Assembly: GCA_947259315.1 (NCBI GenBank)
Contig: CAMYLR010000029.1
Location: 1-17,375 of the forward strand
Direction: 5' to 3'
Length of the DNA stretch: 17,375 bases
From: an uncultured Gemmatimonadales bacterium
GTDB taxonomy: Bacteria > Gemmatimonadota > Gemmatimonadetes > JACCXV01 > JAHWKZ01
The stretch's first letter is position 1. Every line of letters begins with the position of its first letter. Positions 7,459-12,400 of this stretch are shown here, in pieces. A program made the position numbers and the translations under genes. The notes beneath the pieces were generated by a model that was not told the origin of the DNA, did not search any database, and worked only from the letters and a program-made list of their open reading frames with translations.

Positions 7459-7611
7459 TCAGGGTAAACGGCCGACGCGATCGATGATAAAGACGATGAA
7501 CGCCACAATAAGCAGAAAGTGAATCATGCCGCCGAGCGGGAAAAATGTTGCGCCGGCAGCCCAGACGATCACCAGAAGTCCGATCGTCACCCGCAGATTC
7601 AGCCAGCCCAT
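7459..7611 (-). CDS. Small two-helix membrane protein (lmo0937/DUF5670-like)
   Basis: A 50-residue protein beginning MGWLNLRVTIGLLVIVWAAG. It has two hydrophobic segments (about 8-24 and 28-43) joined by a short PLGGMIH turn and ending in a basic DRVGRLP tail. The turn, with Gly-Gly before an I-H-F-L-L helix, is the hallmark of the lmo0937/DUF5670 family of about 50-residue membrane proteins, whose function is unknown. The start is well supported: AGGAG at 7622-7618 is 6 bases before the ATG. The gene overlaps the last 13 bases of the lipid-kinase gene, so translation is probably coupled. Family assignment rests on pattern only. Confidence 0.7.
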   Translation of the reverse strand: MGWLNLRVTIGLLVIVWAAGATFFPLGGMIHFLLIVAFIVFIIDRVGRLP

Positions 7612-8504
7612 GGCCCGCTCCTGGGCATGACGATCGGGACCGCGCGGGGCTCGATTTCGATCGTCGCCGGTGAGGTGCCCGCTACTTCCCCATCGCGCTG
7701 CAGACGCACCTCGGGGTCGGCGTCGATCTGTATCCGCCTGCCGCGCCAGTGCTCGACCAGGTCCGTCTCGGTGGGTGCCCCGCGAAGCAGATACGCTGCC
7801 GCGGTCAAGTAGTCAGCCAACGTCGTCGCGCGATAGACGACGACGTCGAGAAAGCCGTCAACCGGCGAGATCCCGGGCGCAAACTCCCACCCCCGCCAGA
7901 AAACCGCGCCGCAGTTCATGACCTGAATCATCGTCGCTTCGATCTCGCGTGTCTCACCATCCATCGTGACTGTGTAACTGACCGGTTCCAGCGACCCGCG
8001 GCTTTTTCTGAGCCATCCCAGCGGATAAGCGAACACCCCCCACTTGCTCTTCAATCGCCGATTGGCGGCGGCGACCATCTCGGCATGCGAGCCGGTACCC
8101 GCGGCCACCAGATACGTCTCCCCATTCAAACTGCCAGCGTCGATCGGCACGGCGGTGCCGTCCAGTGCGATCGATACGGCGCCATCGATATCGCGCGGGA
8201 TCCCCAGGTTCAAGGCCAACACGTTGGCGGTCCCACGCGGGATGACCGCGAGCGGGATCCGTCGTGAGCCGGCCATCAGACCCGCCGCCACCTCCGCGAC
8301 CGTGCCGTCACCGCCGATGACGACGATCAGGTCGGCGCCACGAACCGCCGCTTCAGCGGCCTGCACAGCCGCGCTTTCGTCGGGAACTGTATCTACCCGC
8401 CAAACACCGTCGCCACGAGCCTCGAGCCGGGCTCGCGCGCGTTCGGCCGCCTTTTGGCTCGAGCCACCACCGGAAACGGGATTGACGATCAGTGTGACGC
8501 GCAG
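7599..8504 (-). CDS. YegS/BmrU/DAGK-family lipid kinase, with a non-standard start
   Basis: A diacylglycerol-kinase-catalytic-domain protein that probably phosphorylates a membrane lipid such as diacylglycerol, sphingoid base or phosphatidylglycerol. It has NPVSGGG at 8-14, the nucleotide-binding GGDGTV at 64-69 and PRGTANVLA at 89-97. The C-terminal beta domain includes VNCGAVFW-like and DGFLDVVVY segments. The first ATG/GTG/TTG in frame is GTG 8366, but that would delete the conserved NPVSGGG strand. In-frame coding clearly continues upstream to the TAG of htpX. I therefore place the start at CTG 8504 (RVTLIVNP follows), giving 301 residues, normal for the family. No ribosome site is seen, so reinitiation after htpX or readthrough of the TAG is possible. 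The catalytic family is sure, the substrate is not. Confidence 0.85.
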   Translation of the reverse strand: MRVTLIVNPVSGGGSSQKAAERARARLEARGDGVWRVDTVPDESAAVQAAEAAVRGADLIVVIGGDGTVAEVAAGLMAGSRRIPLAVIPRGTANVLALNLGIPRDIDGAVSIALDGTAVPIDAGSLNGETYLVAAGTGSHAEMVAAANRRLKSKWGVFAYPLGWLRKSRGSLEPVSYTVTMDGETREIEATMIQVMNCGAVFWRGWEFAPGISPVDGFLDVVVYRATTLADYLTAAAYLLRGAPTETDLVEHWRGRRIQIDADPEVRLQRDGEVAGTSPATIEIEPRAVPIVMPRSGPWAG

Positions 8505-8510
8505 AGCAAC

Positions 8511-8526
8511 GTTCGGCTAGCCGAAC
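8511..8526. repeat. 16-bp perfect palindrome over the htpX stop codon
   Basis: GTTCGGCTAGCCGAAC is its own reverse complement and contains the htpX TAG in its centre. In RNA it could form a 6-bp hairpin with a CUAG loop, just 6 bases before the presumed CTG start of the lipid kinase. Confidence 0.7.
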
Positions 8527-9350
8527 CCTCGCATCGCCATCAACCGCTCCACACGCGCATCGGTAGCGGGATGCGTGCTGAACAGACGGAGCAATGCGCC
8601 GCCTCCGCGGAACGGGTGCACGATGAACATGTGGGATGTGGCGGGGTTGCCCTCCATCGGCACTTGCTTCGAGACCGCCTCGAGCTTCCTGAGCGCCGAT
8701 GCCAACGCGCGTGGTTTGCCGCTGATCTCCGCACCACCTTGATCGGCGGCGAACTCGCGTGAGCGGCTGATCGCGGACTTGATGAACATCGCCGCGATGG
8801 GCGCCAGCAGGATCACCACGAGGGCCAGGATACCGCCACCGCCCCGATTGCGATTACCGCCAAAGAACAGTCCGAACCGCGATACGTACATGATCGCACC
8901 CGCCAGTGTGGCTGCCACGCTAGAGATCAGAATGTCGCGGTGCTTTACGTGAGCCAGCTCGTGCGCCATGACGCCCTCGAGCTCATCGCGGTCGAGGATC
9001 TTCAGGATCCCCTGAGTGGCTGCAACCACCGCGTGCTCAGGATTGCGGCCGGTGGCGAACGCGTTGGGTTGATCCTGAGGCAGGATCGCAACCCGCGGCA
9101 TCGGCAGACCAGCGCGCCGCGAGAGGTGCTCGACGATATCGTATAGCTCAGGCGCCTCTTCGCGATCCACTTCGCGCGCGCGATACATCTTGAGCACGAT
9201 GCGATCGGAGAAGAAGTACGATGCGAAGTTCATCCCCCCCGCCAGAAGCAGGGCGATGAGGGCGCCGCCTTGCCCACCGAAATAGCCGCCGACGAGCACC
9301 AGCGCGACGGTCAAAACCGCCATCAGGACGAACGTCTTGAAGGTGTTCAT
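8517..9350 (-). CDS. htpX: Protease HtpX homologue (M48 zinc metalloprotease)
   Basis: A 277-residue integral-membrane M48B protease involved in quality control of inner-membrane proteins, often under envelope stress. Zinc site: HELAH at 130-134 with the third ligand E199 in SREFAAD. The [10 protein letters not shown] motif (95-104) is also diagnostic. Predicted membrane helices lie at about 6-22 and 28-45, with a hydrophobic pair at about 142-160 and 173-190 around a Gly/Asn-rich linker. The C-terminus ends [14 protein letters not shown], as in the family. I chose ATG 9350 (MNTFKTF) because the frame's 117-codon upstream extension lies largely inside tamB, is Arg/Ser-rich and has no homology. 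There is no Shine-Dalgarno sequence; a perfect TATAAT lies 6 bases before the ATG. It is followed in frame by the lipid-kinase gene after one TAG. Confidence 0.97.
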
Positions 9351-9402: not shown

Positions 9403-12400
9403 TCAGTAGGAGAACTCCCAAAACAAATCGACAGCGCTCTGTCGCGTCCCAGCGGTCGCCTGGACCGCAAAGACCCGCGATACCTGGTAACGAATCCCCA
9501 CCGCCTGGCGGTCTTCCTCGCCGCCCACTTCTTGCTCCGCGGTGATGTACACATCGGGCGTGATGAACTTCCCCACCCGAAACAGCGTCGCTGTTTTGCC
9601 ACTTGTTTCAGCACGCTGCGAAATCTGAAACACGTCAAGTCCGACCTCGCTAGCCAGCGCGTCCTGTAGCGGCAACGAAGCGAATGCACCCGTGGCGACA
9701 CGGGTCACGGTGCCTTCGAGCTGGTTCTGCTCAGACGCGGTCGACGGGTTTGGGGAACCGAAGAGCGCGATCGAGATGATCTCCGACTTCTCATAGGGCG
9801 GTGTCGATTCGAGATCGATCGTTGGGTTGTTGAGTGTTCCCCCAAGGACGATCCGCAGCTCCACGTCGCCAACCTGTTCCACGTTCTGGACCATGCGCGT
9901 GGCCACGATGTGCAGGCCGGGATTGAGCTCGGGAGTTCCAAAGAAGAACACCTCGCCCTCCTGGATCTCGAATCGCCCGGCGAACTCCTCATAGAACCCG
10001 CGTAACACCGTCAGCGTGCCGGAGAACGTCGGCACGTTCGTGCCCGTCGATTTGAAGAGCGACAAGTCACCCTCGATCTCGATGCGTGCGTTGCTCGCGG
10101 TGAAAACAGCGTCGTCGGTAACCCGTACTACGAGATCGAGTCGCGTGCGCGTCCACAGTGAGGGTGAACGTGCCCGCTGAGCGCCCCCGATACCCGGGAT
10201 TTCCACGTACAACGTCGCTTCATCGAGATCGATGATCTGCTTTTGGGATTGCTCGGGGAGCCGGTAGATCGCCTGTTCGACCTGAACTTGCCCGCCTATG
10301 AGCGGGCTTGCTGTCGTACCGGTCAGCGTGATCGACCCACCGACATCGACCTCCTGGCGGCGTAGCCCAAGCACTCGCAACTGATTGAGCTCGAGCTCTA
10401 GGTCGAGCGCCCCAAACTGCAAGTTCTCCATCGCTATCTCACCGCTGGCTTGAAAGCTCCCGCCGCTTCCATCGGTGCCGGTGAGACGCTCGATCCGGAC
10501 GCGATCGTTGTTGAAAGCCACCTGCCCGACGATGTCACGATACGTGACCCCGGTGGCCCCGATCCGAAAACGTCCCGCATCGAGCGTAGCCAACCCTTCG
10601 AAACGTGGTTCCTCGGTTGTGCCCCTGACGTCGACTCTCAGATCGACCGGTCCCTGCAGATCGGTCAACCCAGGGATGAATGCGCCCAACAACGCCATGT
10701 CAGTGTTTCGACCCCGGACGTCGAGGCTGATCGGCCGGTTGGGGATCCGGTCGACACCCGCCACCAGCGCCAGGTCGACCGGGACTTCGCCCGTCAGCAC
10801 GATGTCGTGGCCCTCGGTAGGCGTGGTGATCGTGAAGTCGACGCGACCGTTACGATCCGCGTACGCCGCATTCCCCCGGATCCGAGCAAACCGGAAGCCT
10901 CTGATCTGTCCAGCTGACACATCACCGTCGATGTCGATGATCGGCGCTTCGAGCGTCCCACCCAGGCTTCCGTTGATCGTGAGCTGACCCTCCCAATCCC
11001 CACTCGGCTGACCGGTCATCCGAGCGACCTCGACCAGATTCAGCTGCTCGACAACGAAATCGAGCTCTGATTCGCCGGCGGTCAGCGCAATTGCGCCATC
11101 CACCGTCACACTCTGTGCGCCCTCAGTCACCCGGAACCCATCGAACCGCGCCATGCCACCGCCGATCGTCACCCGGCTGTCATCGGCCATCACCCATGCC
11201 CCGTCCGGTGAGGTGTGGGCGAACTGTCGAAGCGTGAAAGCGGTGCTCGGGGTGCGAAAGTCGGCCACGCCGCCAAACCCGGTCGACGACTCATCGAGGT
11301 AGAGCAGAGTGCCGTCGATGTTCATCAACCGTTCGGTATAGTTGATGTCGATATCGCCTGTTTCGGCCGTGATCCCGGCGATCCTGAGAGCGTCGAGCGA
11401 GCCGTCGACTTGCATTACGAAGGCTTCTCTGACGTCGTCCAGGGTGACACGGCCCGAGAACGAATCCGCCGTCACCACCCCCAGCTCGAGCTGGGCCGCT
11501 CGCACGTCGGCGCTCACATCGAAGCTGTCGTAGGTGCCGCGGATCTCCGCTGTCGATGACGCGCGGCCGCCGAGCCCACCCCAACTCGGCCACACGTCTC
11601 CAAAACGACGCGTGACAACACGAACGTCTGTCTCCATGATCCCGCCGCGTGATAACCCGAACGCACCGCGGCCGCGGACCTCGGTATTCGCCATCCGTGC
11701 GCTCAGACTATCCGCCTGGTAGAGCCAGCCCACGAACTGGCCGCTCGTTTCGGCAGACTCCAAACCCCACCAATAGACGTTCGAGCTCGTCAGCGCTGCC
11801 GTCAGATTCGCGGCCAGTTCGTCCTCCCGCGTGCCCTGGCCCTCGATCACGTAGCCGCCCGAAAGCGTTACGTCGATGTCAGGCCGGCCGATCAGCTCAC
11901 CGATGTCGAGCTCACTGGTGGTCGCGGAAACGTTGTAGCGGAGCGGCCGAGTGGCTCCCACCATCCCATCGACGGTGAGCCCTCCGGCGGGGGTCCCAAG
12001 ATCGGCGTCGACGTTCATACGGCGCGGCGGGCCGGTCAGCCTCACGCGTCCGTTTAGCGGCTGCTCGAACGGGTAGCCGGCCCAAAACAGCCGGATGTCG
12101 TCTGGCACCAGCCGTTCGAGGTCGATGTCGAGGTCGAACTGGAGGTTGGCCAGATCGAGCAGGGCACCGGTTGTAGTCACCACCGAGCCACCGGTCTCGA
12201 CCCGACTGGAATCGATCACAACCGTTGGGCTCGCAGTTGGACCTTCGAGCCGGCCCTCGAACTCGGCGTCACCGCTCAACCGAATCGCGGGAAAGAAACG
12301 ACGCCACTCATCGAGACCGATGACGGGAGCGTCGATCTCGAGCGCAAACGAGTCTTGCTCGCCAAATACGACTTCTCCGTCGGTCGCGATCATCGAGCCG

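Follow-up and report, generated by a model that had tools for sequence, protein, structure and literature searches.

In Escherichia coli, infC is translated from the near-cognate start codon AUU, and this start serves autoregulation by IF3. To our knowledge, no comparable autoregulation logic exists for a lipid kinase. CUG makes up 0.024% of bacterial start codons and in E. coli initiates with 0.86% of the efficiency of AUG (PMC11497404), a value that we have counted against the CTG start proposed below. Switches from AUG to CUG amounted to 2 in 61,358 (PMC5622118). The published rates of CUG starts are probably lowered by annotation practice. The CUG of Caulobacter dnaA has been discarded here as a precedent because it is not used in vivo (PMC8443254), and a literature search for CTG starts in Gemmatimonadota retrieved nothing direct.

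The junction of htpX and a lipid kinase gene

The window analysed here, a stretch of 17,375 nucleotides of an uncultured Gemmatimonadales bacterium (genome G000, assembly GCA_947259315.1, contig CAMYLR010000029.1), carries on its minus strand a gene for the M48 zinc metalloprotease HtpX (8517-9350, 277 aa; NF002826, PF01435) that ends with a TAG at 8519-8517. In a profile search, HtpX scored 392 bits against NF002826 (curated cut-off 369), and its translation carries the zinc motif HExxH as HELAH. Behind it on the same strand, a frame open from this TAG to a TGA at 7601-7599 matches TIGR00147 with 165.1 bits (curated cut-off 118.65) over positions 4-295 of the 296 of the model. Its product (7599-8504, 301 aa counted from the CTG discussed below; TIGR00147, PF00781) is a predicted lipid kinase of the YegS/Rv2252/BmrU type. 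The end of this gene is overlapped by the ATG of a small DUF5670 gene (7459-7611, minus strand; PF18919, 37.3 bits, cut-off 23.5), which sits just upstream of uvrA.

The initial annotation had pointed out that htpX and the kinase share one frame with a single TAG between them, that this TAG lies inside a 16-bp palindrome (GTTCGGCTAGCCGAAC), and that no ATG, GTG or TTG occurs in the frame of the kinase between the TAG and a GTG at 8366, with the NPVSGGG motif encoded upstream of this GTG. All of this is borne out by the sequence of G000, where the palindrome is perfect and spans 8511-8526, the GTG lies at 8366-8364 (minus strand) and NPVSGGG occupies 8483-8463 (minus strand). The GTG, the first canonical start codon of the frame, was rejected as the true start because NPVSGGG and part of the catalytic domain lie upstream of it. 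Counted from a CTG at 8504-8502 (minus strand), the protein covers positions 1-124 of the 125 of PF00781; counted from the GTG it covers only positions 48-124, and the score of the catalytic domain drops from 103 to 74 bits. Extrapolation of the NCBIfam lipid-kinase models puts the N-terminus roughly three to five residues behind the TAG, and the CTG is residue five.

In order to see which features of the junction are conserved, we have compared G000 with four relatives (G001-G004) that belong with it to one family and three genera. G001 is a congener (MAG record DAOWHI010000235.1, Gemmatimonadota). As the five genomes are related, they do not count as five independent cases. The kinase, 48-88% identical to that of the window, is again found behind htpX in each of G001-G004. 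The htpX stops are, in the order G000 to G004, TAG, TAA, TAG, TGA and TAA, the distance from stop to kinase is 12, 13, 53, 25 and 35 nt, and the two genes are in phase in G000 alone (one of five, with a prior of about one third). What is invariant in the five genomes is a CTG-CGC (window 8504-8499) in the same alignment column, located at the first residue of the conserved protein sequence, where homology to the YegS/BmrU lipid kinases sets in. From the preceding in-frame stop to this CTG, an in-frame ATG, GTG or TTG is missing in every one of the five, although in G002 the stretch extends over 297 codons. The first canonical codon downstream of the CTG is scattered (46, 32, 33, 22 and 52 codons on) and always beyond NPVSG. 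The missing canonical start, shared by all five family members, is the non-random part of the junction. CTG accounts for only 32% of the Leu codons in the sampled part of G000, which also speaks for a conserved start. Between the kinases of G000 and G001 there are no synonymous differences in codons 0-14 and 88 codons with synonymous changes in the later 253, a pattern that fits a constrained initiation region, although it comes from a single short stretch.

Since the CTG-CGC is invariant at the onset of homology and a canonical start is missing in all five genomes, we consider it very likely that htpX and the kinase encode two separate proteins and that the kinase is a protein of 301 residues starting at CTG 8504-8502. 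A CTG start was one of the three explanations originally offered for this junction, and the comparison bears it out. The alignment of related junctions that had been suggested as a check gave a divided answer: the missing canonical start is conserved, while the shared frame and the palindrome are not. This comparison of sequences supports where the CTG lies and that it is conserved, and it likewise supports that frame and palindrome are not.

A way to picture expression of the pair is that the two adjacent genes are probably co-transcribed and that initiator tRNA presumably reads the CTG as Met, which would produce a protein of 301 aa beginning with MRVTLIVNPVSGGG... The third of G000 that was sampled yielded no initiator tRNA, and the tRNA-Met present there looks like an elongator. 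The Shine-Dalgarno sequence before the CTG is good in G003 (GGGAG), weak in G004, and absent or too far away in G000, G001 and G002, a point that speaks against the CTG start. Because these last three genomes are without a well-placed Shine-Dalgarno while G003 has one, we infer that termination-reinitiation behind htpX may account for part of the initiation at the CTG, with a local Shine-Dalgarno probably helping in at least one relative. A weak CTG start may also keep kinase output low relative to HtpX.

Alternative readings of the junction

The arrangement in G000, two frames in phase with a single TAG inside a palindrome between them, could also mean that the htpX TAG is read through in a programmed manner, that a hairpin formed by the palindrome promotes this, and that a protease-kinase fusion of 583 residues results. 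In the relatives, however, the kinase is out of the htpX phase in four of four cases, the stop differs in three of four, the palindrome at the htpX stop is kept in none of G001-G004, and the htpX frame of G002 runs into a second stop only three codons on. Palindromes of this kind are moreover expected by chance: a first-order Markov model predicts 0.81 perfect 16-bp palindromes per window and two were observed, the other one at 11480-11495. The features by which programmed readthrough is recognized are not found either, the frames being in phase in one genome of five and neither the stop context nor a stimulatory structure being conserved. With frame, stop and spacing varying among relatives and the palindrome lost, the readthrough reading falls to a very low probability; a different frame with no palindrome in relatives is what the initial annotation had named beforehand as refuting its reading. 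Given the chance expectation and the lack of conservation, we have discarded the palindrome as a signal, and its position at the htpX stop is probably coincidental. That the in-phase arrangement is likewise a coincidence and the TAG an ordinary htpX stop belongs to the explanation by two separate proteins and appears, with it, very likely. An open frame of 596 codons in G002 was considered as a natural htpX-kinase fusion and rejected, as htpX has a TAG of its own there, in another phase, and the long frame is that of the kinase, which simply stays open through htpX, out of phase with it.

The window comes from a draft genome, in which single-base errors occur, so that an error of sequence or assembly, or a local mutation destroying a canonical start, might be held responsible for the missing codon. 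The same CTG and the same absence of a canonical start are found in five separate genomes, a concordance that excludes a sequence error, and we give this reading practically no credence; the suspicion of a local mutation or read error was not upheld, for in the relatives the missing start is conserved and not repaired. Other near-cognate codons are also present in the first strand, and the start could be a second CTG four codons on, an ATC after it, or some upstream codon. The second CTG is found in three of the five genomes and reads GTC in G003 and G004, so that only the first is invariant, and a start at the second would cut into the first strand; we find such a displaced start improbable. 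A refinement that is compatible with the CTG start at 8504-8502 concerns a Shine-Dalgarno-like GAGG (8527-8530, minus strand) within the 3' end of htpX, placed 22 nt ahead of the CTG and with a candidate role in initiation. A hairpin between GAGG and CTG, formed at the level of the genus, could bring the Shine-Dalgarno word to a working distance. Along these lines, the order in G000 is GAGG, a 16-nt hairpin, GTTGCT and CTG, with a local fold of -13.0 kcal/mol, and the congener G001 retains the GAGG and a weaker hairpin (-5.8 kcal/mol). Against this, the arrangement is carried by two sequences only, it is not seen in G002-G004 (G003 has its normally placed GGGAG instead), and the 101-nt junction region folds no better than shuffled sequences (z = +1.07), so that we regard the hairpin as rather unlikely to play this role.

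Origin and frequency of the probable CTG starts

Of 25 kinase loci examined across the class outside the family, 12 likewise have htpX just upstream of the kinase. Loci with htpX followed by a YegS-type lipid kinase (L020, L022-L024, L026-L032 and L036) come from several families, and some have stop-start overlaps. The link between membrane protease and lipid kinase that the initial annotation had proposed holds as a conserved pair of neighbouring genes and nothing beyond that. The orthologues of the class outside the family mostly have a canonical start, which precedes the CTG column by some 8-16 codons, and in L022, L027, L032 and L036 it forms a TTGA, ATGA or GTGA overlap with the stop of htpX. 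Because of these canonical starts, the CTG start of the kinase looks specific to the family of the window. The simplest history would be that the ancestor of the family lost a coupled canonical start and that initiation shifted to the CTG bordering the first strand. In G005, from a sister family of the same order, htpX has no kinase downstream.

We have screened a sample of 777 kb, about a third of the G000 genome, for frames whose homology precedes any usable canonical start, and judging from sequence, CTG starts appear to recur beyond the kinase in engB, glcF, a ppx/gppA homologue and an M50 protease, all of which are matched in relatives by a GTG or ATG at the corresponding site or close to it. 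Such cases in the same genome lend further support to the CTG start of the kinase. The engB gene (G000:C19:43603-44196, plus strand; L051:3603-4196; relatives L078 and L079) follows directly after the clpX TAG, with its CTG behind GAGG in G000 and G001 and a GTG at the matching codon in G002. In glcF (G000:C3:120123-121544, minus strand; L072; relatives L106-L108) a CTGA overlaps the glcD stop, preceded by AGGAGG at 7 nt; the arrangement in G001 is the same, an in-frame CTGA is also present in G004, and G002 has GTGA. The early start candidates of the ppx/gppA homologue (G000:C6:248745-250367, plus strand; L100; relatives L158 and L159) are all CTG, two of them, near the ATG of G003 and G004. 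A weaker case is the M50 (site-2 type) protease (G000:C29:24514-25659, plus strand; L046; relatives L111-L113), in which G000 and G001 both show a CTGA overlap whereas G003 and G004 have an ATG lying 3-4 codons upstream; it is weaker since a TTG lies 11 codons further in (G000) or 3 codons in (G001). The thymidine phosphorylase gene deoA (G000:C3:187123-188511, plus strand; L089:7123-8511), in which a CTG aligns with position 1 of TIGR02643, probably starts there too, with an upstream TTG overlapping the neighbour also present. As an informal positive control for near-cognate starts we have taken infC of G000 (G000:C8:18861-19367, minus strand; L087), with an apparent ATC start behind AAGGAGG that resembles the AUU of E. 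coli infC. Three further frames were left uncounted: a serB-like one (G000:C3:18072-18872, plus strand; L066), whose lack of an in-phase canonical start could possibly be due to slippage or a one-base indel, since a run of six G comes after an out-of-frame ATG; aroKB, for which both CTG and a GTG three codons downstream are candidates; and thiD, with either ATC or an upstream ATG.

Including the kinase, CTG starts would amount to about 6 of the 668 frames in the G000 sample, as compared with the published 0.024%, a figure that represents our own judgement after viewing the flagged list and not a measurement. In two control genomes of the class, the same screen yielded about one case with homology support among 272 frames (G010) and none among 308 (G039), a difference that is suggestive and not significant, the control screen being too small to prove enrichment, the G000 cases having been followed further than those of the controls and the screen having been run in more than one version. 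Shine-Dalgarno words precede the CTG in 10 of 87 cases versus 7.4% overall, a weak enrichment. Strict words do so in 4 of 87 (uncorrected Fisher p = 0.016), of which one is in a gene fragment and one in apparently non-coding sequence. Raw counts of CTGA overlaps do not separate the genomes because most have a canonical start nearby. We can only tentatively suggest, as a possibility we lean somewhat against, that in this Gemmatimonadota family CTG serves as a regular fourth start codon in about 1% of genes, frequently where the genes of an operon meet (as a CTGA overlap, or with the CTG shortly behind a stop) and perhaps via a changed fidelity of initiation, so that standard annotation misplaces starts. 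Were CTG starts really common in the lineage, it would offer a natural system for studying the limits on bacterial CUG initiation. Gene callers that accept only ATG, GTG and TTG would trim the kinase by 46 residues, dropping NPVSGGG. A conserved near-cognate start can thus mimic a fusion by stop-codon readthrough, and a few relatives are enough to tell the two apart.

Comparison with known systems

Among the YegS/Rv2252/BmrU lipid kinases (TIGR00147; PF00781 + PF19279), the kinase of the window is a full-length match above the curated cut-off, unusual solely in its start codon and its position behind htpX. With infC of E. coli and its AUU it shares a conserved non-canonical start, whereas autoregulation by IF3 is a feature of infC with no known counterpart in lipid kinases. 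The resemblance to readthrough genes (surveyed in PMC7918605), two in-phase open frames with one stop between them, is confined to G000, and the relatives conserve neither the frame nor the stop nor its context. The closest likeness is to bacterial genes that start with CUG, as here too the homology begins at the CTG and there is no usable canonical start. The kinase differs from them in that its CTG is conserved in three genera, that other genes of the same genome seem alike, and that it is known from sequence. Taken together, the comparison indicates that the CTG of the kinase is a real, conserved feature, and that of a predicted CUG-initiated gene, a kind that is already known.
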